Assembly (NCBI GenBank): GCA_003246625.1
Contig: QJZR01000010.1
Span: 124,001 to 188,000 of the forward strand
DNA from: Alphaproteobacteria bacterium
GTDB lineage: Bacteria > Pseudomonadota > Alphaproteobacteria > Rhodospirillales > Rhodospirillaceae
Reading direction: 5' to 3'
Length of the DNA: 64,000 nucleotides
Shown one piece after another: positions 18,366 to 41,738 of this stretch (its first letter is position 1; every line of letters starts with the position of its first letter). The position numbers and the translations under genes are program-made. The notes under the pieces were generated by a model. That model was not told the origin of the DNA. It did no database searches and was given only the letters and a program-made list of their open reading frames with translations.

Positions 18366-20243
18366 ATGAGCAACCCCGCCCTGATCGCGCGCATCGCGCT
18401 GCTAAGCCGGACCGCGCTGACCGAGAACCGGCCGGACGCGGCGGAGACCTTCTGCCGCCTCGGCCTGATGACCGATCCCCGCGCCGGCGTCCTGCATCAT
18501 CACCTGGGCCTGTGCTCCCTGCTCAAGGACGACACCCGGGCGGCGCAGCCCTTTCTCGACGAGGCGGTGGACCTGTTCGGCGAGGACGCCTCGCCCGAGG
18601 CGGAGGACGCGCACCGCGACCGCATCGTCGCCCTGCTGATGACCGGGCGCAACGCCGACGCCCTGGCCGCCGCCGACCCCGCCTGCCGCCGCTGGCCGAA
18701 AAGCGCGCCGCTGGCCCGGCTGTGCGCGCAGGCGGCGGAACTGTGCGGCGACGGCATCCTCGCCGCCGAACGCTATGCCCAGGCGCTGGAGCTGCTGCCG
18801 CCGGACCACCCCGAACGCGCCGAGGTCGCCTTCTCCCTCGGCGTCGCGGAATACGCCCGCCACCGCCTGGGCGCCGCCTACGCCGCCTACCGCGCCGCCA
18901 TCGACGCCGACCGGGGGCACGCGCGGGGCTGGTGCAACCTCGGCACCGTGCTGTCCGAAATGGCCCGCCCCGCCGAGGCGCTCAAGGCCTACGAAACCGC
19001 CCTGACCATCGACCCCGCCTATCGCTTCGCCCACGGCAACGCCCTGCACGCCCTGCACTATCTGCCCGGGCAGAGCGCCCCCTCGCTGCTCGCCGCGCAC
19101 CGCGCCTTCGCCGCCCGCCACTTCCCCGCCGACCCGCCGCGCCCGGATGCCCCGGGACGGTCGCGTCCCCTGGTCGGCCTGGTTTCCGAGGACCTGCGCC
19201 GCCACCCGGTGGGATACTTCTGCATGGGCTGGCTGCCCTTCGCCGCCGAGGCGGGTTTCGACGTCGCCGTCTATTCCTCCGCCCGCGTCGAGGACGAAAT
19301 GACCGCCGCGATGCGGCAATCGGTCGCCCTTTGGCGCGACGTCGGCAAACTCGACGACGCGGCGCTCGCCCGCGCCATCCGCGCCGACGCTCCCGACCTT
19401 CTGATCGATCTGGCCGGGCACACCGGACGCAACCGTCTGGCGGCCTTCGCCCTGCGCCCGGCGGCGTTGCAGGCGACCTGGATGGGGTACGTCGGCACCA
19501 CCGGCATGAAGCAGATCGACGGCCTGATCGCCGACCGCGTTCACGTGCCGCGCCTGGAGGAATCCTCCTACGTCGAGGAAATCTGGCGCATGCCCAACGG
19601 CTACGTCTGCTATGCGCCGCCCGCCTACGCGCCGAAACCGCGCGGCGGCGCGGCGAAGCGCAACGGCTTCGTCAGCTTCGCCGCCTTCCACAACCCGGCG
19701 AAGGTCAACGCCGACCTGATCGCCGTCTGGGCGAAGATCCTTGCCGCCGTGCCGGACAGCCGCATCCGCCTGGCCTTCCGCGGCTTCGACGAGCCGCAGG
19801 TGCGGGATTTCGTGGTCCGCACCTTCCAGGCCCACGGCATCGCCGCCGAACGCCTGGACATCCGGGGCGCGGTGCCGCACGCCGAGCTGCTGGGGCTCTA
19901 CAACGACTGCGACTTCGCCCTCGATTCCTTCCCCTACGCGGGGGGGCTGACCACCCTGGAAGCGCTGTGGATGGGCATCCCGGTGGTCGCCGCGCCGGGC
20001 ACCACCTTCGCCGGGCGTCACGCCGCCAGCCACGTCACCTTCGCCGGGTTCGGCGACGAACTCGCCACCGGGCATTCCGACTACGTGCGCACCGCCACCG
20101 CCTGGGCGAATTCCCCCGCCATGCTGGCCGCCGACCGCGCGGCGCGGCGGGCGCGGTTCGCCGCCTCGCCCCTGCTCGACGGGCGGCGCTTCGCCGCCGA
20201 CTTCCGCGCCCTGCTAGCGCTTGCCCTGGCGAAGCCGCGATGA
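18366..20243 (+). CDS. Second TPR-containing O-GlcNAc transferase-like (GT41) protein
   Basis: The 625-residue protein has TPR units in the N-terminal ~230 residues (including AGVLHHHLGLCSLLKDDTRA, GHARGWCNLGTVLSEMARPA) and a GT41 catalytic domain: GLVSEDLRRHPVGYFCMGWL with the active-site-type His, DLLIDLAGHTGRNRLAAFAL, ATWMGYVGTTGMKQIDGLIA, FAAFHNPAKVNADLIAVW with the conserved Lys, and FALDSFPYAGGLTTLEALWM. It has fewer TPRs than the protein at 13878, suggesting a different acceptor range. The true start is the ATG at 18366; the ORF-track extension reads antisense through flagellin. Its stop overlaps the next start (ATGA). Confidence 0.9.
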   Translation: MSNPALIARIALLSRTALTENRPDAAETFCRLGLMTDPRAGVLHHHLGLCSLLKDDTRAAQPFLDEAVDLFGEDASPEAEDAHRDRIVALLMTGRNADALAAADPACRRWPKSAPLARLCAQAAELCGDGILAAERYAQALELLPPDHPERAEVAFSLGVAEYARHRLGAAYAAYRAAIDADRGHARGWCNLGTVLSEMARPAEALKAYETALTIDPAYRFAHGNALHALHYLPGQSAPSLLAAHRAFAARHFPADPPRPDAPGRSRPLVGLVSEDLRRHPVGYFCMGWLPFAAEAGFDVAVYSSARVEDEMTAAMRQSVALWRDVGKLDDAALARAIRADAPDLLIDLAGHTGRNRLAAFALRPAALQATWMGYVGTTGMKQIDGLIADRVHVPRLEESSYVEEIWRMPNGYVCYAPPAYAPKPRGGAAKRNGFVSFAAFHNPAKVNADLIAVWAKILAAVPDSRIRLAFRGFDEPQVRDFVVRTFQAHGIAAERLDIRGAVPHAELLGLYNDCDFALDSFPYAGGLTTLEALWMGIPVVAAPGTTFAGRHAASHVTFAGFGDELATGHSDYVRTATAWANSPAMLAADRAARRARFAASPLLDGRRFAADFRALLALALAKPR

Positions 20244-23180: not shown

Positions 23181-23468
23181 ATGAGTGAAGGATTGATTGA
23201 ACGGGTGCAGGGACTTCTGCAAACCGTCTCGGATGACGTCAACCGTCTGTTCAACGAGGCCCAGAACAGCAACGAGGTGTTTCTCGAGGCTCTCGACGAC
23301 GTGGCCGCCAACGTTCTCGGCCTGCAATCGATCATCGCCGCGATGGTGAAGAAGTATCCGGTGGACGCCGACGAGGCGAAGTCCTGGCTGAAATCCAACA
23401 TGACGCCCGACGCCGAGGGCACCGAAAAGGCCGAGGCGGTGGTGGACTTCCTGCTCGGCAACAAGTGA
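23181..23468 (+). CDS. Small acidic helical protein of unknown function
   Basis: A 95-residue acidic protein with predicted helices (GLIERVQGLLQTVSDDVNRL, EVFLEALDDVAANVLGLQSI, AEAVVDFLLGNK) and no Cys. I do not recognise the family. The ATG at 23181 has GGTCGGAG upstream; the ORF-track extension reads through the divergent promoter. Its stop overlaps the start of the cytidylyltransferase gene (TGATG), so the two are made together and the small protein may be a partner or regulator of that pathway. Confidence 0.7.
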   Translation: MSEGLIERVQGLLQTVSDDVNRLFNEAQNSNEVFLEALDDVAANVLGLQSIIAAMVKKYPVDADEAKSWLKSNMTPDAEGTEKAEAVVDFLLGNK

Positions 23469-24034
23469 TGCCCGCTTCGCCCGCCTATATCGGCGTGATC
23501 CCGGCGAAGGGCGGCTCCAGCCGCCTGCCGAACAAGAACATGGCGGACCTGCTGGGCCGTCCGATGCTGGACTACACCGTCCTCGCGGCGAAGGAATCCC
23601 GCCGCCTGGGCGCCCTTTACATCTCCACCGACAGCGACGAGGTCGCCGCCCATGCCCAGTCGCTGGGGGTGCCGGTGATCCGCCGCGGCGCGGAACTGGC
23701 GGGCGACGCGCCGATCATCGCGGTCTACCGCCACGCCTGGGAAAGCCTGGGCCGCCCGGCGCTGACCGCCGTGGTCGGCCTGCAGCCCGACCACCCCGAC
23801 CGCGAGGTGACGATCGACGCGGCGATCGACGCGTTCGAGGCCGCGAAGGCCGACATGCTGGTCTCCACCGAGGCGGACGGCACCAAGAACGGCTCCCACT
23901 ACATCGTCTCGCTGGCGGTGCTGGAAGGCGCCGAGCCGCGGGCCAAGCACGTCGTCGTCGACGACTGCACCAACGTCCATTATCAAGCCGACCTCGACCG
24001 CGCCGCCGCGCGCCTGGCCGGGGCGAAGGACTGA
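23468..24034 (+). CDS. Short acylneuraminate cytidylyltransferase-like protein (NeuA/PseF type)
   Basis: The family activates nonulosonic acids (sialic, legionaminic, pseudaminic) as CMP-sugars. The 188-residue protein keeps the CTP-binding N-terminal motif IPAKGGSSRLPNKNMADLLG, then RPMLDYTVLAA and LYISTDSDEVAAHAQSLGVP. It is shorter than typical NeuA or PseF (about 220-230), and the usual LQPTSPLR motif reads LQPDHPDRE. It ends soon after NVHYQADLDRAAA, so it may be compact, or altered in substrate or activity. An ATG at 23468, rather than the GTG one codon earlier, couples it to the upstream small gene. A neuB-type gene lies at 28224 in the same island. Confidence 0.78.
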   Translation: MPASPAYIGVIPAKGGSSRLPNKNMADLLGRPMLDYTVLAAKESRRLGALYISTDSDEVAAHAQSLGVPVIRRGAELAGDAPIIAVYRHAWESLGRPALTAVVGLQPDHPDREVTIDAAIDAFEAAKADMLVSTEADGTKNGSHYIVSLAVLEGAEPRAKHVVVDDCTNVHYQADLDRAAARLAGAKD

Positions 24035-28223: not shown

Positions 28224-29234
28224 CTATTCCACCGCGCCGCGCGGCAACGGCTGCCCGGCGGCCACCGCCCGGGTCAGGCGGCGGCCCAGCACCAGATCGA
28301 TCTCGCCGCTGGAAAATTCCGACGCCGGGCGGGCGAACACCAGATCGTCCGCCGTCAGCACCGTCCCCGCGGGCAGGTCGCGCGCCGCCGCCAATCCCTT
28401 GCGCAACGCCGCGCGGGCGGCCGCCTCGCACTGCTGGGGGCGTTTCTCGCCGTCGCCCAGGGCGGCGTGCACGGCGCGCACCGAAACCACCAGATCGGCC
28501 AGTTCGGCGGGTTCCAGCGACAGCGCATGGTCGCGGAACACCCGGTCGGCGCGGGTTTCGGTGACGTGGACCTCGACCATCTCCGCCCCCAGGGCGACCG
28601 CCGCCAGGCAGGCCTGGGTGCCGATGACGTGGTTCGACCACCCCACCGGCAGGCCGAAACGCCGCTTCAGCGCCGGAATGGCGCGCAGGTTAGCCTCTTC
28701 CACCGGCGTCGGATAGGCCGACACGCAGTGCATCAGGACCAGCCGTTCGGCCAGGGGCACGCCGTCCAACGCCGCCTCGAACAGGCGCACCGCCGCCGCC
28801 ACTTCCTCCATGTCGGCGCAGCCGGTGGACAGGATCGCCGGACGCCCGCTCCGCGCCACGGCGCGCAGCACCGGGGCGAAATCGATGTCGCCGCTGGCGA
28901 TTTTCAGCACCGGGCAGATTTCCGCCAGCAGGGGAACCCAGTCCTCGGACACCGGGGTGGAAAAGAAGCCGATGCCGCGCCGCTCCGCCTCCGCCGCCAG
29001 ACGGCGGTGCGCCGCCGCGTCCAGGCCGAAGCGCCGCACCCGCGCCAGACGCTCGGCGTCGGTGGCGGCGATGAAGCGTTCCGGCGTATAGCTTTGGAAC
29101 TTGATCGCGTCCGCCCCCGCTTCCGCCGCCAGCGCCACCAGGCGCAACGCGGCCTCCAGGCTGCCCTCGTGGTTGACCCCCGCCTCGGCGACGACCAGGG
29201 GCGCGCCGCCCAGAACCTTGCCGAACATCTCCAT
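28224..29234 (-). CDS. neuB: NeuB-family nonulosonic acid synthase
   Basis: NeuB-type enzymes condense phosphoenolpyruvate with a 6-carbon N-acyl amino sugar to make sialic, legionaminic or pseudaminic acid. The 336-residue protein has the TIM-barrel motifs VVAEAGVNHEGSLEAALRLV, DAIKFQSYTPERF, GIGFFSTPVSEDWVPLL, KIASGDIDFAPVLRAVA, LMHCVSAYPTPVEEANLRAI, PVGWSNHVIG and EVHVTETRADRVFRDHALSL, and a C-terminal SAF domain (GLAAARDLPAGTVLTADDLV). Which nonulosonate is made cannot be told. It is the last gene of the leftward sugar operon and converges on the DUF4910 gene with a 4-nt gap and no terminator. Confidence 0.93.
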   Translation of the reverse strand: MEMFGKVLGGAPLVVAEAGVNHEGSLEAALRLVALAAEAGADAIKFQSYTPERFIAATDAERLARVRRFGLDAAAHRRLAAEAERRGIGFFSTPVSEDWVPLLAEICPVLKIASGDIDFAPVLRAVARSGRPAILSTGCADMEEVAAAVRLFEAALDGVPLAERLVLMHCVSAYPTPVEEANLRAIPALKRRFGLPVGWSNHVIGTQACLAAVALGAEMVEVHVTETRADRVFRDHALSLEPAELADLVVSVRAVHAALGDGEKRPQQCEAAARAALRKGLAAARDLPAGTVLTADDLVFARPASEFSSGEIDLVLGRRLTRAVAAGQPLPRGAVE

Positions 29235-29238
29235 CCGT

Positions 29239-31710
29239 CTATGCCTCTTCGCTGATCGCCAAATGGCGCTCGACCAGGGTCTGCGCCAACTGCGCCGCCG
29301 CCGCCAGAATCTCGCTTTCCCGCCCGCCGCTGGCCGCCCGTTGCGCGGTCAGCGCGGCGTTGACCGTCGCCGCCAGGGCCTCGTGCAGCGGGCGGCTGTC
29401 CCGGTGCATCCAGGCGGCATCGAGCAACAGGAAGGCCGCCGCCTCGTGCGCGTGCGCCGACGCCAGCCGCCGCGCCAGGGCCAGAATCGGCGGCACCGCC
29501 AGGGGATCGCGGTCCACCGCCGCGGTCAGGGGATCGACCGCCGCCTCGGCGTTGGGAAACAGGGTGTCGACCGCCGCCAGACGGCGGTATTGCGCCTCGT
29601 AGGCGGCGGCGACGGCGGGCCAGGCGAACACCGCCTCCACCCGCTTGCGGCCCGCCGCGCCCAAGGCCGCGCCGCCGTCGGCCCGCGCCAGCACCCGGAT
29701 CGTCGCCGCCGCCAGGCGCTGCGGCGACGGCGCCTTGACCAGCACGCCGGTCTGGCCGTCCACCACCTGGAAGCGGGTGCCCGGCGCGTCGGCGGCGACG
29801 ACCGGCAGGCCGCAGGCCATCGCCTCGCAGGTGACGTTGCCGAAGGTTTCCAGCACGCTGGGATTGAGGAACAGGCTGGCGGCGCGATAGACGCCGGGCA
29901 GTTCGGCGTGCGGCACCGCCCCCAGCAGGTGCACGCGGTCGGCGACGCCCAGTTCCGCCGCCAGGGCGGCCAGCGCCCCGGCATCCTTGCCCGCGTGCAG
30001 CAGGTGCGCATCCGGGAAGGCGGCAAGAACCTGGGCGAACGCCTCCACCCCCGCGTCGAAGCGCTTGCTCGGAATCGCGCGTCCGGCCATCAGCAACACC
30101 GGCGCCGCCGCCGGAATTCCCAGGCGGGAGCGCAGGTCCGCGCCGTTCCCCGGCGAAAACGCCGCGGCGTCGACGCCGTTGGGGATGCGGACGATGCGCG
30201 CCGGATCGGCCATCGCCGCCAGTTCCGCCACCACGTCGTCGCTGATCGCGACGCACAGGTCGCTGCCCGCGATGGCGGCGGAAATCGCCGCATCGTTCGC
30301 CGGGTCGAGCCGCCAGCCATAGCCGATTTCCGGCATGCGGTTGATGTCCATGCCATGGCAGCGGGTCAGCACCGGCACCCCGTGCAAGGCGCGCAGGGCC
30401 AGGGCGAAGGGCGCCGCCTCGAAGGCGCTGTGCGCGGAAATCGCGTCGAAGCGCCGCACCAGATGGCGGCGCAGGAACTGCTGGTGCAACGACCCCGGCA
30501 ACAGGCCGAGCGGGCGATGGCGCGGCCGTTCGGCCAGCGGCCCACGGGCGAAACCGCCGGAAAAGCGGGCCAGCGCGTAGGGAGCCTCGGCATCGCCTCC
30601 CGGTTGCTGCTCGGCGGGGGCGAACACCGTCACCGCGTGGCCGCGCGCCACCAGTTCGCGGGCCAGCCGGTCCAGTTGCAGCTCCAGACCGCCGACCACC
30701 GGCAGGAAGGAATTGGTCAGCATCGCCAGGTTGAGGGGCTTTTCCGGCGGCGCGGCGGCGGGCAGCGGCACCTTCGCCGCCGACGGGCAGAGCACCGCGC
30801 AGCGGGTCTTTTCGCCGCCATAGACCGGGAACACCGTGGCGAGACGGCTTTTCGCGCTCATCGTATAGGCGCGCATGCCGAAGCGTTCGGCGAACAGTTC
30901 CGCCATGTCGCGCAGGATCTGCCGGATCGGGAAACGCCGCCCGCCGCCGCCCTCGTGCGGGTGGCGCATGTCGGTCTTGCGCGGCGGCAGCAGCGGCGCG
31001 AAGGATTCGTATTCCGGCATCTCGTAGAAATGCAGCGCGTCGGTCATGTCGACGCCGCAGAACACCACGTTGCGGCAGCCCAGCATCGCGGCCAGCGCGA
31101 ACATCGCGGGCACCGTCGCGGTCGGCTTGGGCAGGAAGGCCGCCCCCCGCCCGAAGCCGAACAGACCGTGATCGATCAAATGGCGCAGCAGCAGCACCGG
31201 ATTGGCCGCGCAGCCGGAATACTGGAACAGTTCGCGGGTGAACAGGCAGCGCGGCCCGCATTCCCGCATCAGGGTGCGGCCGAAGGGCCGTTCGTGGAAG
31301 CGGAAGAAGTTCACCTCGTCGCCACGACAGATGAAGGTGGTGTCGCGATAGTCGGGCAGGCGCAGGCGCAGCAGCTTCTCGATGCCGCTTTCGCCGTTGT
31401 CGGCAACGCGGGTGGTGGAGATGGTCAGGTAATAGTCGGTGGCGAAGGGATGGACCAGCCAATGGTTCATGCCGATGCTGGTCTGCCCGGCGATGTGCGC
31501 CCACTCGCGGTCGGTGATGTCGAGAATCGACGGCCCGCTGCCCATCAGGAAGGCGGTGTCGCCCTTTATCGGCAGCACCGTGCGCCGGTTGAGGTCGGCA
31601 TAGCCCATCTTCATGTAGGCGGCGACCGAACGCGCGGCGTGGCCGGTCTGGTCGGTGGGGTCCCAAAGGGTGCGCACCGCGGCGCGCAGGCCCATGCCGA
31701 AATCAGGCAT
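29239..31710 (-). CDS. Fusion: Maf/GT42-like domain plus GT4 glycosyltransferase
   Basis: The 823-residue protein has three parts. Residues ~1-310 resemble the GT42-like core of flagellar Maf (DUF115) proteins and sialyltransferases: FLMGSGPSILDIT (residues 55-65), then a Cys-rich stretch, TATVPAMFALAAMLGC, VVFCGVDMTD (about 216-224), RHPHEGG and AYTMSAKSRLATVFPVY. Residues ~327-700 are a GT4 glycosyltransferase (MLTNSFLPVVGGLELQLDRL, TRCHGMDINR, MAGRAIPSKRFDAGVEAFA, SVLETFGNVTCEAMACG with the E-x7-E motif). The last ~120 residues are helical. With NeuB encoded next door and a CMP-sugar synthetase nearby, the N-terminal half may transfer a nonulosonic acid. This is inferred; a non-catalytic pterin-enzyme-like fold is an alternative. 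Confidence 0.78.
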   Translation of the reverse strand: MPDFGMGLRAAVRTLWDPTDQTGHAARSVAAYMKMGYADLNRRTVLPIKGDTAFLMGSGPSILDITDREWAHIAGQTSIGMNHWLVHPFATDYYLTISTTRVADNGESGIEKLLRLRLPDYRDTTFICRGDEVNFFRFHERPFGRTLMRECGPRCLFTRELFQYSGCAANPVLLLRHLIDHGLFGFGRGAAFLPKPTATVPAMFALAAMLGCRNVVFCGVDMTDALHFYEMPEYESFAPLLPPRKTDMRHPHEGGGGRRFPIRQILRDMAELFAERFGMRAYTMSAKSRLATVFPVYGGEKTRCAVLCPSAAKVPLPAAAPPEKPLNLAMLTNSFLPVVGGLELQLDRLARELVARGHAVTVFAPAEQQPGGDAEAPYALARFSGGFARGPLAERPRHRPLGLLPGSLHQQFLRRHLVRRFDAISAHSAFEAAPFALALRALHGVPVLTRCHGMDINRMPEIGYGWRLDPANDAAISAAIAGSDLCVAISDDVVAELAAMADPARIVRIPNGVDAAAFSPGNGADLRSRLGIPAAAPVLLMAGRAIPSKRFDAGVEAFAQVLAAFPDAHLLHAGKDAGALAALAAELGVADRVHLLGAVPHAELPGVYRAASLFLNPSVLETFGNVTCEAMACGLPVVAADAPGTRFQVVDGQTGVLVKAPSPQRLAAATIRVLARADGGAALGAAGRKRVEAVFAWPAVAAAYEAQYRRLAAVDTLFPNAEAAVDPLTAAVDRDPLAVPPILALARRLASAHAHEAAAFLLLDAAWMHRDSRPLHEALAATVNAALTAQRAASGGRESEILAAAAQLAQTLVERHLAISEEA

Positions 31711-32620
31711 CGCCGTCCTCCCGCCTCGCGGGCAGGCCCGGGCCGTCGGCGGCGAAAACGCCGGAGGGCAACGGGCCGCCGTCCTCCGCCGCCCAGTCGG
31801 TCAGCAGCAGGGCGCCGTCGCGGCAGATCAGGAACGGGCCTTCCCCGCCGACGCGGACGATCCGCCCCGGGGTGCCGCGCACCTGCGGCGCCGCGTGCCG
31901 CGCCGCGAAGACGCGGACGATCCGCCCCGCCACCTCCAGCCAGGCGCCGGGATAGGGGCGGGTCAGGGCGCGGATGAAGCGCAGGGCCTCCGCCGCCGTC
32001 GTCCGCGCCGGGGCCAGCCGCCCGTCGGCGTCGGCGCGCTGATGCCAATAGGCGGCGCGCGCGGCGTCCTGCGGGGTGCCCGTCTCGCCGCGCTCCAGGG
32101 CGGCGATGGCGGCCAGCGCCAGGCCGGGAAACGCGGCGTTGGCCTTGTCGTGCAGGGTGGCGATGGTGTCGTCGTCGCCGATCGGGATACGCGTTTCGGC
32201 AAGCAGCGGCCCGCTGTCGATCCCCGCGTCGACGCGGATGGCGGAAATTCCCGCCGCCGCCTCGCCCATGATCATCTGCCAGTTGAGGGGGGAACCGCCG
32301 CGGTATTCGGGCAGGCGGCCGCCGTGCAGGTTGACCGCGCCCAGCCGCGCCGCCGCCAGCAGCGGCGAACGGAAGATCTGCGAGAACCCGGCGATCAGCA
32401 GCACGTCCGGCGCCAGCCCGGCCAGTTCGGCCAGGAAGTCCGCATGGTTGACGTCCGCCACCGTCTCCACCGCCAGGCCCAGGCCGCGCAGCTCGTCGGC
32501 GACGCCGGCCGGCGCGGCGGGCGGCACCACCGCCAGAACCACGCCGTGCCCGGCGGCCAGAACCGCCCGCACCGCCGCCAGGCCCCGCGCCCCGTTGAGG
32601 AAGACGACGACGCGGCGCAT
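31703..32620 (-). CDS. Methionyl-tRNA formyltransferase-like sugar N-formyltransferase
   Basis: The 305-residue protein has the formyltransferase core: AVNLHGGRLPEYRGGSPLNW (Asn and His of the active site) followed by VDAGIDSGPLLAETRIPIG (conserved Asp), and a C-terminal OB-like domain (TRPYPGAWLEVAGRIVRVFA). In sugar clusters such enzymes use N10-formyltetrahydrofolate to N-formylate amino sugars. The true start is the ATG at 32620, overlapping the epimerase stop (ATGA); the ORF-track version reads upstream through that gene. It overlaps the fusion gene by 8 nt. An upstream DegT aminotransferase could make its amino-sugar substrate. Confidence 0.87.
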   Translation of the reverse strand: MRRVVVFLNGARGLAAVRAVLAAGHGVVLAVVPPAAPAGVADELRGLGLAVETVADVNHADFLAELAGLAPDVLLIAGFSQIFRSPLLAAARLGAVNLHGGRLPEYRGGSPLNWQMIMGEAAAGISAIRVDAGIDSGPLLAETRIPIGDDDTIATLHDKANAAFPGLALAAIAALERGETGTPQDAARAAYWHQRADADGRLAPARTTAAEALRFIRALTRPYPGAWLEVAGRIVRVFAARHAAPQVRGTPGRIVRVGGEGPFLICRDGALLLTDWAAEDGGPLPSGVFAADGPGLPARREDGDA

Positions 32621-33699
32621 CAGCCCTGCCCCAGACTCGCGGCGGTCTTTTCCCACTGCGCCTTGTACCAGTCGCAATAGGCGGCATAGCCGACCGACAG
32701 GTCCCTTTTCGGGGTGAAGCCCAGGAACTCGCGCGCGCGGTCGATGCGCAGGGTGCCGCGCTTCGGCTTTTCCTTGGCGGCGGGGGCTTCCTCGAAGCGG
32801 GCGTCCGGGAAGCGGTCGCGGATGATCGCCGCCAGTTCGCTGACCGGGCGCGCCGCGCCGTAGGTCAGGTTGAAGGTGCGGCTGAGACCGCCGGGCAGGG
32901 CCATGGAACGCACCAGCCCGTCGGTCAGATCGTCGATGTGGGTGAAGTCGAGCAGGCCGGAACCGCCGCCCTCCAGCCGCGAGGGCTTGCCCATCAGGGC
33001 GTTCTCGACGAATTTCTGGGTGACCCGCTGGGAGATGCAGCGGATGCCGTACAGCGCGCTCGGCCGGACGATGGTGTAGGGAATGCCGTACAGGCGTTCG
33101 TGTTCGCGCATCATCCGCTCGCCGATGTACTTGGCGTTGGCATAGACGCCGCGCGGACGCGGGCGCACGGTTTCGTCGACCCAGTCGTTTTCGAAGTCGC
33201 CGTAAACGGTGCTGGAGGAGAAGAACACCACCTGCCCGGTCTCGGACTGGCGCAGGCGGCACAGTTCCAGCAGGTTGCGCAGGCTGGTGATTTGCAGGTC
33301 GTAGGCCAGGGCCGGGGCCTTGTTGGCGGTGACCGCGCTGGAAATCGCCGCCAGGTGCACCGCCTTGGTCGGCATGAACTCGTTGAACACCTCGGACAGC
33401 TCGTACATGTTGCGGGCGTCGACCACCCGCATATCGACGTCGGCGTCGCGCATCAGGGCGAAGCGTTCCAGGACGAACCCCTGATAGAGGGCGCGGCGCA
33501 CCGGATCGATGTCGCGGCGCACCACCAGGCTGACCAGATTGTTGATCAGCACCGAATCCGCGACCATCACCTCGGCCCCGGCGCGGCGCAGCGCCAACGC
33601 CAGGTGGTGGCCGATGAACCCGGCGCCGCCGACCAGAAGAATGCGTTCCCCCTTCAGGGAAAGGGCCTCGGTGGGCATGTCGATGGTATTGGCGGACAC
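32620..33699 (-). CDS. NAD-dependent epimerase/dehydratase (extended SDR)
   Basis: The 359-residue protein is an extended short-chain dehydrogenase acting on a nucleotide sugar. It has the NAD motif LLVGGAGFIGHHLALALR (about residues 21-38), VDARNMYELSEVF, AVHLAAISSAVTANKAPALA, the Ser/Thr segment VVFFSSSTVYGDFEN and the catalytic Tyr-Lys in YANAKYIGER (about 190). The C-terminal substrate domain follows (TIVRPSALYGIRCISQRVTQ). It could be a 4,6-dehydratase, a 4-epimerase or a related enzyme; the active-site residues alone do not settle this. A long 70-residue insertion-like region lies between the first and second beta strands (INNLVSLVVRRDIDPVRRAL). Confidence 0.88.
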   Translation of the reverse strand: MSANTIDMPTEALSLKGERILLVGGAGFIGHHLALALRRAGAEVMVADSVLINNLVSLVVRRDIDPVRRALYQGFVLERFALMRDADVDMRVVDARNMYELSEVFNEFMPTKAVHLAAISSAVTANKAPALAYDLQITSLRNLLELCRLRQSETGQVVFFSSSTVYGDFENDWVDETVRPRPRGVYANAKYIGERMMREHERLYGIPYTIVRPSALYGIRCISQRVTQKFVENALMGKPSRLEGGGSGLLDFTHIDDLTDGLVRSMALPGGLSRTFNLTYGAARPVSELAAIIRDRFPDARFEEAPAAKEKPKRGTLRIDRAREFLGFTPKRDLSVGYAAYCDWYKAQWEKTAASLGQG

Positions 33700-33714: not shown

Positions 33715-34875
33715 CTAGCCTTCCTGGAAAAAGTCGGCGACCGCCGCGGCGATCGCGTCCATGTCGTCGGCGCCGAGATGCGGGCCGCAAGGCAGGGACA
33801 AGGTCTGCGCCGCGATCCAGCGCGCCACCGGAAAGGCCTCGGCGGCGGGATGGTTCCGCGCGGCATGATAGCGCGAAAACGGCAGGGCGACCGGATAATG
33901 CACGCTGAAACCGATGCCGCGCGCCTGCAAATGGCGCATCAGGGCATCGCGCGACACCGACCCGTCGCGCGGCAGGGTCAGGTTGACGCAGAAGCAGCAG
34001 CTTTCCGCCGCGCCGTGACGCAGCGGGAACAGGGTGACCCCGGGCAGACCGGCCAGGGCGGCGTGCAGGCGCTCGGCGTTGGCGCGGCGGCGGGCCAGAA
34101 AGTCCGGCAGGCGCGTCAACTGGCACAGGCCGATCGCCGCCTGCACCTCGTTCATCCGGTAGTTCCAGCCCAGGTCCTCGATGTCGTAGAGGCCGGGCAT
34201 GGCGCGTTCGCCCAGCCCCTTGTCATAGGAAAAGGCGCGTTTCTTGCGCGCCGCCTCGGCCAGGGCGTCGTCGTCGGTGACCAGCATGCCGCCCTCCAGG
34301 GTGGTCATCAGCTTGGTCGGATAGAAGGAATAGGCCCCGGCGGTGCCGATCGTCCCCGCCTGGCGGCCGCCGAAGCGTCCGCCCAGGGCGGCGGCGGCGT
34401 CCTCGATCACCGCCAGACCGCGCGCCGCGGCGACGGCGCCGATTTCGTCCATGGCGCAGGGCAGGCCGATATAGTGCACCGGCATCACCGCGCGGCTGCG
34501 CGGCGTCAGCGCGGCGCGCAGGGCCGCCGGGTCCAAACCGCCGGTTTCCGCCGAGACGTCGGCGAAGACCGGGGTGGCGCCACAATGTTCGACCGCATGG
34601 GCGGTGGCGACGTGGGTCATCGCGGGGACAATCACCTCGTCCCCCGGGCCGACCCCGGCGGCGACCAGGGCCAGATGCAGCGCGGTGGTGCAGGACGAGG
34701 TGGCGACGGCGTGCCGCGCCCCGACGAATTCGGCGAACGCCGCCTCGAAGGCGCGGCCTTCCGGCCCGTGGGTCAGTACGTGGCCGGACAGGACGCGTTG
34801 CGCGGCGGCCCGTTCGGCATCGCCGAGCAGCGGGCGGGCGAAGGGAATCTCGCGTTTGCTTTCCCGGTCGGTCAT
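33715..34875 (-). CDS. DegT/DnrJ/EryC1/StrS-family PLP-dependent sugar aminotransferase
   Basis: The 386-residue enzyme uses pyridoxal phosphate to put an amino group on a keto sugar nucleotide. Seen: IPFARPLLGDAERAAAQRVL at the start, VATSSCTTALHLALVAAGVG (phosphate-binding), VIEDAAAALGG (Asp contacting the PLP ring), the Lys in SFYPTKLMTTLEGGMLVTDD that forms the Schiff base, and GWNYRMNEVQAAIGL. The ATG at 34875 follows GGGGAGGGGACG; the longer ORF adds an unrelated leader. It lies between Gfo/Idh oxidoreductase and epimerase genes, a standard amino-sugar combination. Confidence 0.94.
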   Translation of the reverse strand: MTDRESKREIPFARPLLGDAERAAAQRVLSGHVLTHGPEGRAFEAAFAEFVGARHAVATSSCTTALHLALVAAGVGPGDEVIVPAMTHVATAHAVEHCGATPVFADVSAETGGLDPAALRAALTPRSRAVMPVHYIGLPCAMDEIGAVAAARGLAVIEDAAAALGGRFGGRQAGTIGTAGAYSFYPTKLMTTLEGGMLVTDDDALAEAARKKRAFSYDKGLGERAMPGLYDIEDLGWNYRMNEVQAAIGLCQLTRLPDFLARRRANAERLHAALAGLPGVTLFPLRHGAAESCCFCVNLTLPRDGSVSRDALMRHLQARGIGFSVHYPVALPFSRYHAARNHPAAEAFPVARWIAAQTLSLPCGPHLGADDMDAIAAAVADFFQEG

Positions 34876-34892
34876 GGCTTCGTCCCCTCCCC

Positions 34893-35921
34893 CTACATCA
34901 GATAATCGACGGCGACGGAGCGGCCGCTCTGCACCGCCTGCCAGATCGCGAAACAAACGTCCATGACGCGGAAGATCTCCACCTCGCGCACCGGCGGTTC
35001 GCCGCCCGAACGCAGGGCGGCGACGAAATCCGGCAGGTGGTCGCCCTTCTCGACGCCGGGATAGGGCGTGGCGAAGGCTTCCTCGTCGCCCTCGCCGTCA
35101 CCGTGGAACAGGCGGGCGTCGGGCATGCCGTTCTCGAACGAAAGCCGGGTACCATAGAGGTTCAAGGCATGGAACTTCCGCCGCTTCGGCCCGTACATGG
35201 TGGTAGTCTTGCCGGTGGCGCCCGAGGCGAAACGCAACAGCGCGGTGATGGTGTCGGGCCAGCGATAGGCGGACCCCCGCGTCAGGATGCCGTTGCCCAT
35301 GGCGCAGACCTCGGTCACCTCTTCCCCGGCGATCCAGCGCATCAGGTCGATCAGGTGGATGCCGCCGCCGTAGACGGTGCAATAGAACGCCATCTTGCCG
35401 CGCCAGCCCTCGGTGATCTTCCACAGGATGTCGTGCAGATAGTCGCCCTCGATGTGCACCAGGTCGCCGAAGGCGCCCTCGTCCATCATCGCCTTGATCC
35501 GCTTGAAGCGCGGGCTTTGCCGCAGGATCAGGTTCGAGGTCAGGCGGCGCTTGCTGTCGGCCAGGGCGCGGGCGACGCGTTCGGCGTCGCTGCGGAACAG
35601 CACCACCGGTTTTTCCACCATCACATGCTTGCCCGCGGTCAGCGCGGCGATGGTCTGTTCGGCGTGGGCGTCGTCGTAGGAGCAGATCGAAATCACGTCG
35701 AGGTCGGCTTCCACCAGCCGCCGCCAGTCGGCATGGCGGCGCGGCACGTCGTGGCGGTCGGCGACCTCGGCCAGACGGACCGGATCGATGTCGCAGACGT
35801 CGGTGACGGTGCAGCCGGGAATCGCGTTATAGGCGACGACGTGGCGTTCCCCCACGCCCAGGCCGATGACCCCGGCGCGGATCGGGCGGAACGGCGGAAC
35901 GGCGGTGCGGCTATCGTCCAT
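34893..35921 (-). CDS. Gfo/Idh/MocA-family NAD(P)-dependent oxidoreductase
   Basis: The 342-residue protein has an N-terminal Rossmann domain (AGVIGLGVGERHVVAYNAIP), the conserved EKP motif (GKHVMVEKPVVL) with the catalytic-site Lys, and the C-terminal Gfo/Idh domain (GGGIHLIDLMRWIAGEEVTE, with the usual His-x2-Asp). These enzymes oxidise or reduce a hydroxyl or keto group on sugars or nucleotide sugars. Its position between the methyltransferase and the aminotransferase suggests it makes the keto sugar that DegT aminates. Confidence 0.92.
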   Translation of the reverse strand: MDDSRTAVPPFRPIRAGVIGLGVGERHVVAYNAIPGCTVTDVCDIDPVRLAEVADRHDVPRRHADWRRLVEADLDVISICSYDDAHAEQTIAALTAGKHVMVEKPVVLFRSDAERVARALADSKRRLTSNLILRQSPRFKRIKAMMDEGAFGDLVHIEGDYLHDILWKITEGWRGKMAFYCTVYGGGIHLIDLMRWIAGEEVTEVCAMGNGILTRGSAYRWPDTITALLRFASGATGKTTTMYGPKRRKFHALNLYGTRLSFENGMPDARLFHGDGEGDEEAFATPYPGVEKGDHLPDFVAALRSGGEPPVREVEIFRVMDVCFAIWQAVQSGRSVAVDYLM

Positions 35922-35924
35922 GGG

Positions 35925-36653
35925 TCACCGCCGCGCGATCAGAAGGTGTTTGTTCTTAAGGATCCCCGCGCCGTTGGTCTGCAGGTTGCGGCCCGCCGCG
36001 TCGCGGAAGGTCCAGGTGCGGATGGCGGCCAGGTCGGGGCGGAAGGGCAGGTCGGCATCCATCTCCACCGCCTCGAAGCGCAGGCTCGCCACCCGGCCAT
36101 CGAGGATTTCCCGCACCGTGCGCTGCGCGTGCACGTTCCAGTCGGTGTTCCAGACCTGCGAGCGGCTGCCCGGCGAACGGTCGCGGAACTGCATGCGCAC
36201 GTCGACGTCCAGCGGGTTGAAGCGCCCGTCGACGATCAGCAGGCCGCCCGGCGCGACCAGGGAGGCGAGCTTTTGCAGGACCTCCGTGGGGTCGGTGAAG
36301 ATTTCGACGACGCCGGTGGAGATCACCACGTCCCACTGTCCCTCGGCGGCGAAGACCGAGGCGGCGGAAAAATCGATCCCCGCCAGTTCCGGCGCGGCGG
36401 CGGCGGCGGCGATGTAATCCGGCGACAGGTCGATACCGGACAGGCGCCAGCCGGGAAAGGCCTGTTTCAGGCGATAGAGGCATTCGCCGTTGGCGCAGCC
36501 GACGTCGAGCAGGCGCAGACCGGGCGCCCCGGCGGTCTCGGCGGCCAGCACGCGGATCAGGTTCTTGTGGTCTTCCTTGAACAGGTCGGCGACGCCGCGC
36601 CGCGCATAGGGCGTGTTGGCGGGTTCGACCACGAACAGTTTCTCGTCGCTCAT
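35925..36653 (-). CDS. SAM-dependent class I methyltransferase
   Basis: The 242-residue protein shows the S-adenosylmethionine motif LRLLDVGCANGECLYRLKQA, the acidic ribose contact in WRLSGIDLSPDYIAAAA, WDVVISTGVVEIFTDPTEVL and GGLLIVDGRFNPLDVD. It starts the leftward sugar operon and is followed 3 nt later by the Gfo/Idh gene. The methyl acceptor is not known; a sugar hydroxyl or amine of the same glycan is likely. Confidence 0.87.
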   Translation of the reverse strand: MSDEKLFVVEPANTPYARRGVADLFKEDHKNLIRVLAAETAGAPGLRLLDVGCANGECLYRLKQAFPGWRLSGIDLSPDYIAAAAAAPELAGIDFSAASVFAAEGQWDVVISTGVVEIFTDPTEVLQKLASLVAPGGLLIVDGRFNPLDVDVRMQFRDRSPGSRSQVWNTDWNVHAQRTVREILDGRVASLRFEAVEMDADLPFRPDLAAIRTWTFRDAAGRNLQTNGAGILKNKHLLIARR

Positions 36654-36731: not shown

Positions 36732-39700
36732 TTAAGAAGTGGTTGACCCTTCGGGGGGCACGGCGCGTTCCAGAATCATCCGGCGCAAATGCGCGCCGAT
36801 GCGGGCATACGCGTCGGACCGGAAGTGACGGATGCTGTCGGTGTGGTCCTGCGGCCCCAGCACGTCGAGCCGCAGATCGCACAACCCGACGCCAGGATGA
36901 CGGGCAACCACCGCGTCCAGGATGGCGTTGAAGGCACGATGCCGCAGGTGGCGGTTCTTTTCCGTCGAATGCGGAAACTCCGTCTCCACCGCGTTGACCA
37001 GGATCAACGGACAGCGCCCTTCCAGACGCGCGATGATTTCCTCCAGATTCGCTTCGAAGCGTTGCGGCGAAATGCCGCCGAGAAAACGGTAATTCTCGGC
37101 GAACCAGGGCAAGAATCCGGGGTCCGCGCCAAGGCCGGGAACCCGCGATATCTGGTGCGCCCAGTTCGCCGGGTCGGTGATGTCCCATTCCAGGTTGGCG
37201 AAGGGCACCACGAACCCGCTGTCGCGATGCTGATATAGCCCCTGCGTGTAATCCATCAGGGTGCCGAGAACCCGCACCGCGCCATCGTCGCCGAAGACCC
37301 GCGAGGCATAGGCGGAGCGGTCGATGAAGGGCAACCGGTCGATCAACGCGCCATGACGGTCGAGCACGTCCGTGCCGTTGCGCACCAGAATCTCGGTGTG
37401 GTCGAGGTGCATCGGAATCCCGTGACGCCCGGGCGTGGTGAATTCGGTAACCGCCGTGATTCCGCCGCCGATGTGGGGCGTGGATTCGAACAGGTCGCAA
37501 CTGCCCTTGAGCAACGCCACCACCGGCGGCGGCGACGTGCGGACACGGGGGGCGGCGTCGGCCGCCAACGCGACGTAAAGGTCGCGCAACGACGCCGCCA
37601 ACCGGTCGTAGGCATACCGCTTGCGCGCGAAATCACGCAGCGCGGCGCGATAGGCGGGGTCGCGCCCGCGTTCCATCGCCTCCTTCACCGCGGCGTTGAT
37701 CGCCGGCGGATCGGTGGGGTCGAAATAGGTGGCGAAGCCGCCGAAATATTCCCGTTCCGACGAACGGTCGCTCAGCGCCAGGGGGGTCCCCGCCGCCGCC
37801 GCTTCCAGCGCCGACAGGGGCGCGCCCTCGGCCAGGCTGGGCAGGACGAAGGCCGCCGCCCCGGCATAGGCCGAGGCCAGCAACGCGTTGTCGCCGACCT
37901 GCCCGGTGGCCAGCCAGCCCGGCCGCAGGTGCCGCCGCACCTGCTCGGCATAGGGGACGTCGCCGCCGCCGCCGATCAGGACCAGGGGCTGCGGTTCGTC
38001 CCGCCAGGCCACCGCCAGGGAGAGCTGGTTCTTCCGCCGTTCCAGGTTGCCGACGCAGAGGACGTAATCGGCAAGGCCGCTGACGCGGCGGAAGGCGTCG
38101 GGGTCGGCCCCCTCCAGCCAGTCGGTTCCGGCGGCGTTGCGGATGATCGAATGACCGCAGGCGCCCAGGGGCTCCAGCGCGGTCATCGCCGCCTTTTCGT
38201 GCTCGGAAAGGAAGACGACGTGGTCGACGGTGTCGAGAATCCGCCGCAGGCAGAGGCGATAGTTCGGCGACAGCGCCCGCAGGTTGCCGTCGACGCCGGG
38301 ATTGATCCGCCGCAACTGCTCCATCATCGGCGCGTACAGGCCCGCCGCCTCGTCGAGGTCGGAGGACTCGGTGAACATCTTGGTCAGGCCGAAGCCGATG
38401 CTGAATTCGCTCTGGTCGAGGAAGATCGGCGAAAACACCAGACGGCGGCAGCGCGGACGGAAGTATTCCACCTGCGCCAGCGCCTCCTCGGGCGACCAGA
38501 TGTTGTGGACGTGGACGACGTCGAAGCCGCCCGCCAGCATCTGGTTGCCATAAACCACGTCGGCCCGCACCCCCAGGCCGTCGAGGGCGCGGGCGGTCGC
38601 CAGGACCCGCCGGGTGGGACCGCCGAACTGGCCGTTCCTCCCCTCCGGCGGATGCAGCGCCAACAGCACCCGTGGCCCCGGAACGGCGCGCTGGCTCCCC
38701 TCGGCCAGATCCTCCAGGGCCCGACGCACGGCGCCCGCGATGTCGCTCCAGGAAAAGTCGGCCAGACGCTTCTGCCCGCGCATCACCAGACGGCTGGACA
38801 CCCGCAGATCGCCAAGTTCGCGGATCGCCTCGGCCAGTTTCGCGGCGTTCCCGGCGGGAAAGATCAGGGCGGCGGCGCCCGCCACCTCGGGCAGCGCGCC
38901 GCCGTCGGAACAGATCACCGGGCAGCCGCAGGCGAAGGCCTCCAGCACGGTCAGGCCGAAACCCTCGTAATGGCTGGGGTTGACCAGGGCGAAGGCATGC
39001 GCCAGCAGGCAACGCAGTTCCTCGTCGCCAGCCTCCATGCCATAAACGCCGTCCTCGCCCAGTTGCTGGACGAAGTCCTCCTGCACCGTGCCGTCGCCGA
39101 CGAAGACCACCAGGGGGCGCTCCGCCTCGGGCAGCAGGGCGACCGCCGAAACCAGGACGTCCGCCCCCTTGTAGCCGCCCTGCGACCCCAGATAGACGAC
39201 GTAGTCGCGGTCGATGCGATGCTTCTTCAGCACCGCGCCGGGGTTGTCCGGCAGCGGCGTCAGGAACGCCGGGTCGACCGAGGAATGGGCGACCGACACC
39301 GGGCGCGCCGCGGTCTCGGGGAACAGGCGCAAAAGGTCGCGGCGGGTCGTTTCGGAAACGCAGACGAAGCGGTCGGCGCGGTGGATCAGATCGTGTTTTT
39401 CCACCCACATCGGCGACGTCAGGTCGAAGCCCAGAACCTCGGGGATCATGTCGTGGATCATCGCCAGGGTCGGCGTGGTCAGCGGCCGCGCGTAATAGGT
39501 GGAGCAGAAGGCGGCGGCGTCGAGATCGTCGCAATAGGCCTGCATCACCGCCGGATCGCTGTCCAGGCGGTTATAGTGATGCGGCTCGACGGTCAGGGTT
39601 TCCAGCCCCTCGAAACGGGGCGCGGTGCCGCCCCGGTCGAGCAGCACGACGCGGTCGAGGAAACCGTCCTTGCGCCATTCGGCGAAGATGTTCTTCCACA

Positions 39701-41738
39701 CCCGGGCGATGCCGCTTTTCGTGCTCAAGTGGAAGAAGCTGCCGTCGATGACGAAGGGCTTCCGCTTGGCGGAAAGGGCGCGGCGCGGCGCGGCGGCCCC
39801 GGCGGCGGCAAAGGGCGCGGCGACGCCGAGGTCGCGGCGCAGCCAGACCCCCGCCTGTTCGCGGCGGCTGCGGCGCAGGGAATCGACCAACTGGGGGAAG
39901 AAACTGTCGTTGGCCAGCTTCCAGCACATCTCCTCGACCGCCTGCGCCCTCAGCTTGCGCGGCGGATCGAGGACGAGAAGATGGATGCGGCCGGTGCTGT
40001 GCAGGCGATAGCCGATGCCTTCCGCCAGGCGTTGCAGGCCGGTCATCGCGGGCAGGAAGCGGGTCTCGTCGCGCAGGTCGTCGAGGACGCCGCCGCCCCG
40101 CGCCTCGCTCCACACCGGGCAGTCGAGGACGATCACGTCGGGACGCGCGGCGGCGGCGCGGGCCAGGGCGGCGGCGGGATCGGCCTCCGCCTCGAACCGG
40201 CTCCACAGCACCGCCTCGGCGAAGTCGCCGGACAGGTTCGGCACCCCCGCGTGGGCCGAGGCCGGGGCCCGGCGCGGACGGCAGGCGGCATGCCCCCGCT
40301 CGCGCAGCAGGGCGGCCAGCAGGCCGTCGTCCATGCCCTCGACCAGCAGGGGCTCGGTGCGCGGCGCCCCGGCCAGAAACAGGGCGGCGTCGGCGCGGTC
40401 GGCCAGGGTTTCGGCATGACCGGCGAAGCCGGGCGGCAGGGGACCGGGGGCGGCAAACGCCCCCTCCACGCTCAGGCTGCCGCACGCGGCGCACTGAAAG
40501 ACGGCGCGGGCGGGCCGTCCGTCCGCGACGCCGCGGACGAAGCGTTCCCCGGTCTCGCCGCCGCACACCCGGCAGGGCGGCGCGGCGACGGCACGCGGCG
40601 CGGAAACGGCGGAGGCGGCGTCCCCTTCCACCCGCAGCATCGCCGCGACCAGGGTTTCCGCCGCGGCGGCCCAGGTGGACGACGCGGCGTGACGGCGCGC
40701 CCGGTCGCCCAGGACGCCGCGGTCGAGGCGGCCGTCGCGGAAATCGCCGATCAGGCGGGCGACCGCCGCGATATCGTTGGGATCGACCTGGATGCCGACG
40801 TCGCCCGCCACCTCGGGCAGCGAGGCGCGGTTGGAAACCACCGCCGGGCAGCCGCAGGCGAAGGCCTCCATCGGCGGCAGGCCATAGCCCTCGTAGTACG
40901 ACAGATAGAAGAAGCACATCGCCCCGGCATAGAGGGCGGGCAGGTCGGCGTCGGGCACGTAGCCGGTGACCGTCACCTTCTCGCGCAGGCCGGGAACCGC
41001 CGCGATCTGGCGCTGCAACTGTTCGTTCCCCCAGCCGCTGGCGCCGGTGAGAACCAGCGAGGTCGGCGCGCCGCCCGCCGCGACGAAGGCGGCGAAGGCG
41101 TCGACCACCGCCTCCATGTTCTTACGCGGCTCCAGGGTGCCGACGCTGAGGATATAGGGCTGCCCCTCGGGAATGCCGTAGGCGCGGCACACCCGCGCCA
41201 CCTCCGCCGCCGCGACCGGGCGGTGGAAGCGGTCGTCCACCGCCGGATAAAGAACGTGGGTGCGCGCCGCGGTACCGGGATAGAGGCTGAGGAAATCCCG
41301 CCGGGTACACTCCGAAATGCAGACCACCTGGGTGTCCGGGCGGATGAACTGCAAGGTGTCCTTGCGGAACCACGCCTCGTAGTTGCCGGGGAACAGCTCG
41401 GGATAAAGGACGGGCAGCAGGTCGCAGATCACCAGCCAGTCGTGGATCGCCGGATTGCGCAGTTCGCCGAGCTCGACGCCGTAATAGGGGGCGAAGACGT
41501 GCAGCGGCTCGTCCCCGGCATAGGGCGGCTTGCCGATCAGGTCAGACATGCCGGATTCCGCCAGGTAACGCGAAAGCGGCACGTGCCAACGCGGCGCATA
41601 GGCCAGCGACAGGTCGACGTCCGGCCTGTCGTGCAGAGCCCGCAAAAGCTGGCTGGACAGGCTGTAGACGCCGGTACGGGCCAGCACCTCGGCCTGGGCG
41701 AACCCGATCACCGAGGCCTCGAACAGGATGCGAACCAC
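36732..41738 (-). CDS. Giant multidomain protein: three GT4 modules, zinc-ribbon-like motif and SGNH-like tail
   Basis: The single 1668-residue ORF has no internal stop. Residues ~1-370 are a GT4 module (LSVGTLEPRKNMEAVVDAFA, YYEGYGLPPMEAFACG). Residues ~389-420 have two Cys pairs (CRVCGG, CAACGS), like a zinc ribbon, followed by a poorly characterised region to ~655. Residues ~660-1015 are a second GT4 module (YLGSQGGYKGADVLVSAVAL, HYEGFGLTVLEAFACG). Residues ~1022-1395 are a third (CVGNLERRKNQLSLAVAW, LAEGAPLSALEAAAAG). Residues ~1405-1668 begin with LLKGSCDLFES and end with DHTDSIRHFRSDAYARIG, resembling an SGNH-type hydrolase or acyltransferase. It probably builds several linkages of one oligosaccharide in the cytoplasm. 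No signal peptide or membrane segment is seen. Confidence 0.85.
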   Translation of the reverse strand: MVRILFEASVIGFAQAEVLARTGVYSLSSQLLRALHDRPDVDLSLAYAPRWHVPLSRYLAESGMSDLIGKPPYAGDEPLHVFAPYYGVELGELRNPAIHDWLVICDLLPVLYPELFPGNYEAWFRKDTLQFIRPDTQVVCISECTRRDFLSLYPGTAARTHVLYPAVDDRFHRPVAAAEVARVCRAYGIPEGQPYILSVGTLEPRKNMEAVVDAFAAFVAAGGAPTSLVLTGASGWGNEQLQRQIAAVPGLREKVTVTGYVPDADLPALYAGAMCFFYLSYYEGYGLPPMEAFACGCPAVVSNRASLPEVAGDVGIQVDPNDIAAVARLIGDFRDGRLDRGVLGDRARRHAASSTWAAAAETLVAAMLRVEGDAASAVSAPRAVAAPPCRVCGGETGERFVRGVADGRPARAVFQCAACGSLSVEGAFAAPGPLPPGFAGHAETLADRADAALFLAGAPRTEPLLVEGMDDGLLAALLRERGHAACRPRRAPASAHAGVPNLSGDFAEAVLWSRFEAEADPAAALARAAAARPDVIVLDCPVWSEARGGGVLDDLRDETRFLPAMTGLQRLAEGIGYRLHSTGRIHLLVLDPPRKLRAQAVEEMCWKLANDSFFPQLVDSLRRSRREQAGVWLRRDLGVAAPFAAAGAAAPRRALSAKRKPFVIDGSFFHLSTKSGIARVWKNIFAEWRKDGFLDRVVLLDRGGTAPRFEGLETLTVEPHHYNRLDSDPAVMQAYCDDLDAAAFCSTYYARPLTTPTLAMIHDMIPEVLGFDLTSPMWVEKHDLIHRADRFVCVSETTRRDLLRLFPETAARPVSVAHSSVDPAFLTPLPDNPGAVLKKHRIDRDYVVYLGSQGGYKGADVLVSAVALLPEAERPLVVFVGDGTVQEDFVQQLGEDGVYGMEAGDEELRCLLAHAFALVNPSHYEGFGLTVLEAFACGCPVICSDGGALPEVAGAAALIFPAGNAAKLAEAIRELGDLRVSSRLVMRGQKRLADFSWSDIAGAVRRALEDLAEGSQRAVPGPRVLLALHPPEGRNGQFGGPTRRVLATARALDGLGVRADVVYGNQMLAGGFDVVHVHNIWSPEEALAQVEYFRPRCRRLVFSPIFLDQSEFSIGFGLTKMFTESSDLDEAAGLYAPMMEQLRRINPGVDGNLRALSPNYRLCLRRILDTVDHVVFLSEHEKAAMTALEPLGACGHSIIRNAAGTDWLEGADPDAFRRVSGLADYVLCVGNLERRKNQLSLAVAWRDEPQPLVLIGGGGDVPYAEQVRRHLRPGWLATGQVGDNALLASAYAGAAAFVLPSLAEGAPLSALEAAAAGTPLALSDRSSEREYFGGFATYFDPTDPPAINAAVKEAMERGRDPAYRAALRDFARKRYAYDRLAASLRDLYVALAADAAPRVRTSPPPVVALLKGSCDLFESTPHIGGGITAVTEFTTPGRHGIPMHLDHTEILVRNGTDVLDRHGALIDRLPFIDRSAYASRVFGDDGAVRVLGTLMDYTQGLYQHRDSGFVVPFANLEWDITDPANWAHQISRVPGLGADPGFLPWFAENYRFLGGISPQRFEANLEEIIARLEGRCPLILVNAVETEFPHSTEKNRHLRHRAFNAILDAVVARHPGVGLCDLRLDVLGPQDHTDSIRHFRSDAYARIGAHLRRMILERAVPPEGSTTS

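Follow-up and report, generated by a model that had tools for sequence, protein, structure and literature searches.

A great many bacteria make nonulosonates, but only a small number of the transferases has been identified; according to work on Bacillus subtilis published in 2020, there was no report of an enzyme that puts legionaminic acid onto bacterial surfaces (PMC7439481). In the GT42 sialyltransferase CstII of Campylobacter, H188 is catalytic and Arg129, Asn51 and Tyr81 bind the acceptor (review, PMC4202792). Two described proteins join a Kdo transferase to further glycosyltransferase activity: WbbB, an O-antigen-capping protein in which an N-terminal Kdo transferase is accompanied by two GT domains (PMC9587256), and KrkA, a protein of capsule building that is Kdo transferase and ribosyltransferase at once (PMC12887879). 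The Caulobacter protein FlmG, of the TPR-GT type, transfers pseudaminic acid to flagellin without any Maf (PMC7591256).

The stretch of DNA analyzed here, 64,000 nucleotides long and called the window below, belongs to a Rhodospirillaceae genome of 2.69 Mb (20 contigs, rated 100% complete). The initial annotation had marked an open reading frame at exactly 29239-31710; its strand is the minus one, and its product has 823 residues. Our analyses confirmed it as a real feature, a one-chain fusion with a GT4 glycosyltransferase, with this layout:

29239..31710, minus strand: fusion gene, 823 aa, single ORF; GT42-like domain, GT4 domain and helical tail
30811..31710, minus strand: N-terminal GT42/Maf-like domain (N-domain), residues 1-300, predicted CMP-nonulosonate transferase (AlphaFold2, Foldseek, family profile)
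30730..30810, minus strand: Ala/Pro-rich linker, residues 301-327, low confidence in the model
29578..30729, minus strand: GT4 domain, residues 328-711 (PF00534 5.5e-31, PF13439 2.5e-24)
29824..29850, minus strand: GT4 EX7E motif, E621-E629, intact
29242..29577, minus strand: C-terminal helical tail, residues 712-823, without a known domain

The frame was continuous and GC3 was uniform across the fusion junction (0.89/0.96/0.90), so the junction bears no sign of an assembly join. Pfam assigned only the GT4 part of the protein (residues 339-689), in agreement with the earlier reading of everything beyond the N-domain as a GT4 enzyme. With the two halves modeled separately, this half showed a GT-B fold in addition to its Pfam GT4 domains and EX7E motif, and Foldseek matched it to MshA (PDB 3c48, 9e-22), to sucrose-phosphate synthase (5e-21) and also to BshA structures. 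The likeness to MshA/BshA-type GT4 enzymes includes 25% identity to PDB 3c48 and the EX7E motif, although it is a likeness of fold that does not predict the donor or acceptor of the GT4 half. The tail (~110 aa, residues 712-823), absent from the initial annotation, had no Pfam match and was predicted, at low confidence, to be helical.

The N-domain alone matched no Pfam or NCBIfam model above cut-off, its match to PF01973 (MptE-like) being sub-threshold (E 0.024, 14.9 bits against a cut-off of 34.6). The GT42 model PF06002 did not match the window protein, and its best result, in one of 41 homologues, was E 0.08; when 299 genomes of the phylum were searched with PF06002, a single match passed the cut-off, which was not enough to make a GT42 profile. 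The commonest Pfam match of the N-domain family was PF01973 (30/41, best 2.5e-7), and weak matches were found to the PHROG "alpha-2,3-sialyltransferase" (8/41 members) and to the model of the CMP-Kdo transferase WaaZ (4/41). In profile searches with the family, the nine best PDB matches of a four-sequence profile were all GT42 sialyltransferases (E 0.0026), and a 41-sequence profile reached CstII at E 2.9e-4, with an hhalign E of 1.6e-6 (the CstII sequence compared was that of PDB 2wqq save two positions). Judged by sequence, the family seems to lie outside the PF06002 model and is not clearly a GT42 member.

The AlphaFold2 model of the N-domain (pLDDT 84.9, pTM 0.86) gave GT42 enzymes at Foldseek ranks 1-12 (CstI 8.8e-7, CstII 4.4e-6), Maf (PDB 5mu5) at rank 13 (8.8e-5), and MptE/archaeal HPPK below both (Mj HPPK, 5.7e-4). 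TM-scores to the CST-I fold were modest, 0.42/0.48 (range 0.4-0.5). Because both profiles (E 0.0026 and 2.9e-4) and the structure model (CstI 8.8e-7, Maf 8.8e-5) gave this resemblance, we do not regard the likeness to GT42 and Maf as chance. The structural comparison with Maf and CstII that the initial annotation had proposed thus returned CstI/CstII first and Maf next, and MptE as the sole match of the N-domain, the outcome it had named as refuting, was rejected by this ranking. Among viral proteins, the best fold match in the BFVD library was an unnamed entry, G3GNW1 (3.7e-10); this entry and Caudovirales proteins have the predicted fold in common, with E-values from 3.7e-10 to 4e-4, and several are labeled MptE-like. 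By sequence, no relatives of the N-domain were found in plasmids, phages or viral contigs.

The three motifs recognized at the outset occur in the order first described, and their positions, with that of N82, are:

31528..31542, minus strand: GSGPS motif, residues 57-61, aligning with CstII G8-S12; S61 in 41/41
31465..31467, minus strand: N82, aligning with CstII N31; kept in 40/41
31048..31056, minus strand: GVD motif, residues 219-221 (then MTD), aligning with CstII G152-D154; G219 and D221 in 41/41
30961..30963, minus strand: H250 of RHPHEGG, a candidate for the catalytic His; 31/41 sequences have His in the column

Residues S61, N82, G219 and D221 align with CstII S12, N31, G152 and D154, and S58/G59/P60/S61 is the equivalent of GxGPS. 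From the alignment, the near-invariant GSGPS, N82 and D221 would be equivalents of the GT42 nucleotide site. The H250 column aligns with CstII H184 across a gapped loop, four residues short of the catalytic H188, and given this nearness a catalytic role for H250 appears likely. Conservation of an Asp and a His in homologues, on which the initial annotation had staked its case, was complete for the Asp; ten of the 41 lack the His at its column, some of them having a His a few residues away. The CstII acceptor residues N51, Y81 and R129 showed no conservation in the family alignment, as expected if the acceptor of the N-domain differs.

Of the known systems, CstI and CstII are the best fold match, with equivalents of GxGPS, N31, D154 and the C-terminal S-x-L kept in the N-domain. 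The N-domain differs from them in being unrecognized by PF06002, in its longer loops, in the loss of N51, Y81 and R129, and in its fusion to GT4. With Maf (PDB 5mu5) it has the central fold in common, and both are linked to nonulosonates and flagellin; however, the window protein lacks PF20157, GT4 takes the place of the C-terminal part of Maf, and the relatives are standalone. By domain content the fusion protein is not a Maf, and by the PF06002 test it is not GT42. The proposal of a GT42/Maf-like N-domain therefore stood for the fold and the nucleotide-site residues and fell for membership of Maf, the protein being without PF20157 and its relatives single-domain and not beside flagellin. Whole Maf membership was rejected on the same absence, a true Maf (L105) showing PF20157 and PF01973.

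The first relatives, found in whole-genome searches, were three genes of ~300 codons, two of which adjoin CMP-sugar synthetase or PseC-like genes. A scan of the genomes of 84,980 species then yielded 40 homologue loci in Bacteroidota, Verrucomicrobiota, Acidobacteriota, Pseudomonadota, Chloroflexota, Actinomycetota and other phyla, and the domain was standalone (~300 aa) in all 40. By strict cut-offs, NeuB, NeuA or PseC was present at 32 of these loci and at none of 20 control loci centered on other GT4 genes (for NeuB/NeuA alone, Fisher p 8e-7); the controls came mainly from the window's own order and the homologues from many phyla, so that the comparison is matched for GT4 and unmatched for taxonomy. 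Neighbors of single homologues included a DUF4910 gene (adjoining L041) and carbamoyltransferases (near L043 and L051).

Several candidates did not survive inspection. Two apparent fusions, L028 (499 aa) and L054 (569 aa), were rejected as upstream read-through in GC-rich DNA; L105 was rejected as a fusion, being the true Maf mentioned above; and L106 was rejected as a family fusion, since it is another kind of protein, whose MptE-like domain is C-terminal. In the latter (1-1959), the PF01973 domain follows a region of ~400 residues without a Pfam match.

No flagellin was found within 10 kb at any homologue locus, and FlaF and FlbT were also absent from the sampled loci. The family therefore appears to be a general one of nonulosonate clusters, its flagellar setting being special to this genome among those examined, and any flagellar role rests on this one genome because the homologue loci lack flagellin. 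The gene neighborhood of the standalone family points to CMP-nonulosonate transferases that would be distinct from Maf and outside PF06002. The family is widespread and apparently undescribed, without an assigned name; a partial literature search found no description of DUF115 with nonulosonic acid.

The search for the same domain order that the initial annotation had called for met the GT4 fusion in the window gene only: there was none in the 40 loci or in ~1,100 genomes of the family, order, class and phylum, nor in plasmids searched with the full protein. In the tree, the window domain sits on a very long branch and groups (98/90) with Myroides, Denitrobaculum and Pelagibius. The alphaproteobacterial sister genes, those of Denitrobaculum and Pelagibius, have a GT4 gene ~170-190 nt downstream of the domain, and GT4 genes also follow the standalone domain directly in Sulfitobacter and in a Chloroflexi MAG. 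This placement of GT4 genes suggests that the fusion gene may have arisen from the joining of adjacent genes. The adjacent GT4 genes show no special similarity to the fused GT4 domain.

The surroundings of the fusion gene in the window comprise the following genes:

28224..29234, minus strand: NeuB (PF03102 1.2e-65), the sole NeuB in the genome by own-genome search
31703..32653, minus strand: sugar formyltransferase, start approximate (PF00551 1e-19)
32620..33699, minus strand: SDR of 4,6-dehydratase/epimerase type (PF01370 5.8e-36)
33715..34887, minus strand: PseC/LegC-type aminotransferase, start approximate (PF01041 7.7e-115; TIGR03588 1.6e-85, below its cut-off)
34893..35921, minus strand: GFO/IDH/MocA oxidoreductase
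35925..36653, minus strand: methyltransferase
36732..41738, minus strand: triple-GT4 protein of 1668 aa; Pfam matches nothing in its C-terminal region
23465..24034, plus strand: CMP-sugar synthetase-like protein (CTP_transf_3), short, 189 aa (PF02348 2.5e-17)
17211..18095, minus strand: flagellin (PF00669 3.8e-22)
13878..16262, minus strand: TPR-GT41 protein, FlmG-like (PF13844 1.1e-38)
18366..20243, plus strand: TPR-GT41 protein, FlmG-like, divergent from flagellin (PF13844 4.5e-31)

NeuB, which had already been noted beside the fusion, is the next gene downstream and starts 4 nt past the fusion stop, and the upstream formyltransferase overlaps the fusion start by 8 nt. On account of this overlap and short gap, the genes for the methyltransferase, GFO/IDH oxidoreductase, aminotransferase, SDR, formyltransferase, fusion and NeuB are probably co-transcribed in that order. 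The protein with three GT4 domains is encoded upstream of the operon on the same strand. Among the pathway genes and their neighbors in the cluster, neither a NeuC/PseG hydrolase nor an acetyltransferase was seen, and PADLOC gave no match.

The operon lies in a flagellin-glycosylation island in which flagellin, FlaF and FlbT were verified with Pfam and which has further GT4 proteins; flagellar genes, read from translations, flank the island on both sides within the window. An association of the fusion with nonulosonate synthesis and flagellin had been anticipated, and the sole NeuB of the genome in an operon within this island bears it out. Also within the island are a NodU-type carbamoyltransferase and a DUF4910 protein (25087-28219, plus strand), and further TPR proteins are encoded at 12475-13827 (minus strand; weak GT9-like match at its C-terminus) and 20240-21721 (plus strand). 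The setting is one shared with FlmG, flagellin glycosylation without Maf, but where FlmG is one TPR-GT protein, its counterpart here is two separate TPR-GT41 genes and is not the fusion. Both TPR-GT41 proteins are better candidates than the fusion for placing the first, protein-linked flagellin sugar.

We give slightly better than even credence to the fusion being a bifunctional glycosyltransferase of the flagellin-glycosylation island, in which a CMP-nonulosonate transferase and a GT4 enzyme would lay down two consecutive sugars in the flagellin glycan, most likely a nonulosonate and one more. Its activity, stereochemistry, donor, acceptor and order of sugars, with flagellin as the target, we infer as follows. 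The operon (SDR, aminotransferase, formyltransferase, NeuB, CMP-transferase) would make a nonulosonate, which the N-domain, a putative inverting, metal-independent CMP-nonulosonate transferase of GT42/Maf-type fold, would transfer to a glycan acceptor. The GSGPS motif, N82 and D221 would hold CMP, and H250 is a candidate for the base. The GT4 domain would act as a retaining NDP-sugar transferase and add the neighboring sugar. The acceptor would most likely be a sugar already put in place by the FlmG-like TPR-GT41 enzymes, which would make the link to the protein.

The same two activities could instead serve a surface polysaccharide (LPS, O-antigen or EPS), with the GT4 domain building or extending a chain that the N-domain adds to or caps with an ulosonate, in the way that WbbB and KrkA use Kdo. 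Like WbbB (GT99; PMC9587256) and KrkA (GT140; PMC12887879), the window protein has, by domain order, a putative N-terminal CMP-ulosonate transferase joined to a second GT; the standalone homologue loci are without flagellin, and the protein with three GT4 domains can be counted in the same operon. WbbB and KrkA themselves, however, use a retaining mechanism, have a modified GT-B-type fold, a class other than that of the N-domain, belong to other families and build capsule or O-antigen, and no sequence or fold match between them and the N-domain appeared. With the operon inside a flagellar region, near flagellin, FlaF, FlbT and the TPR-GT41 genes, and holding the genome's only NeuB, we consider a role in surface polysaccharide rather unlikely. 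Among the genes annotated in the operon, none was noted as a polymerase or an exporter.

Direct linkage of the nonulosonate to flagellin Ser/Thr by the N-domain in the manner of Maf, with extension by GT4, seems less probable again. The fold match to Maf 5mu5 (8.8e-5) and the flagellin locus speak for it, a family profile (A2) weakly reaches a true Maf, and, more speculatively, the helical tail could bind flagellin. Yet there is no PF20157, the relatives are single-domain proteins away from flagellin, the best fold match is to oligosaccharide sialyltransferases, and FlmG-like enzymes are at hand for direct O-linkage. Least probable, and in our view quite improbable, is that the N-domain is no glycosyltransferase at all but either an enzyme of the MptE/HPPK kind or a module that binds the acceptor without catalysis, leaving GT4 as the one catalytic part. 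Both PF01973 as the family's commonest Pfam match (30/41) and the fold match to Mj HPPK (5.7e-4) could be read in this way; since the central domain of Maf also carries a PF01973 assignment (PMC11339370), the PF01973 name does not discriminate, while MptE ranks below GT42 and Maf and the genomic link is to CMP-nonulosonate genes.

If the reading as a two-sugar enzyme of the flagellin glycan is correct, the fusion would carry out two steps of flagellin glycosylation in one compact enzyme, a parallel to WbbB and KrkA with their Kdo transferases. The standalone family is the more valuable lead, since a sialyltransferase-fold family beside pathway genes in most sampled genomes offers concrete transferase candidates. 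We tentatively propose, at somewhat less than even confidence, that the N-domain represents a widespread family, as yet without a name, of CMP-nonulosonate transferases that stand alone in a variety of phyla, a family which may supply the legionaminic/pseudaminic-type transferases still missing for many surface-glycan clusters, and which here would have been fused to GT4 for a two-sugar step in the flagellin glycan.
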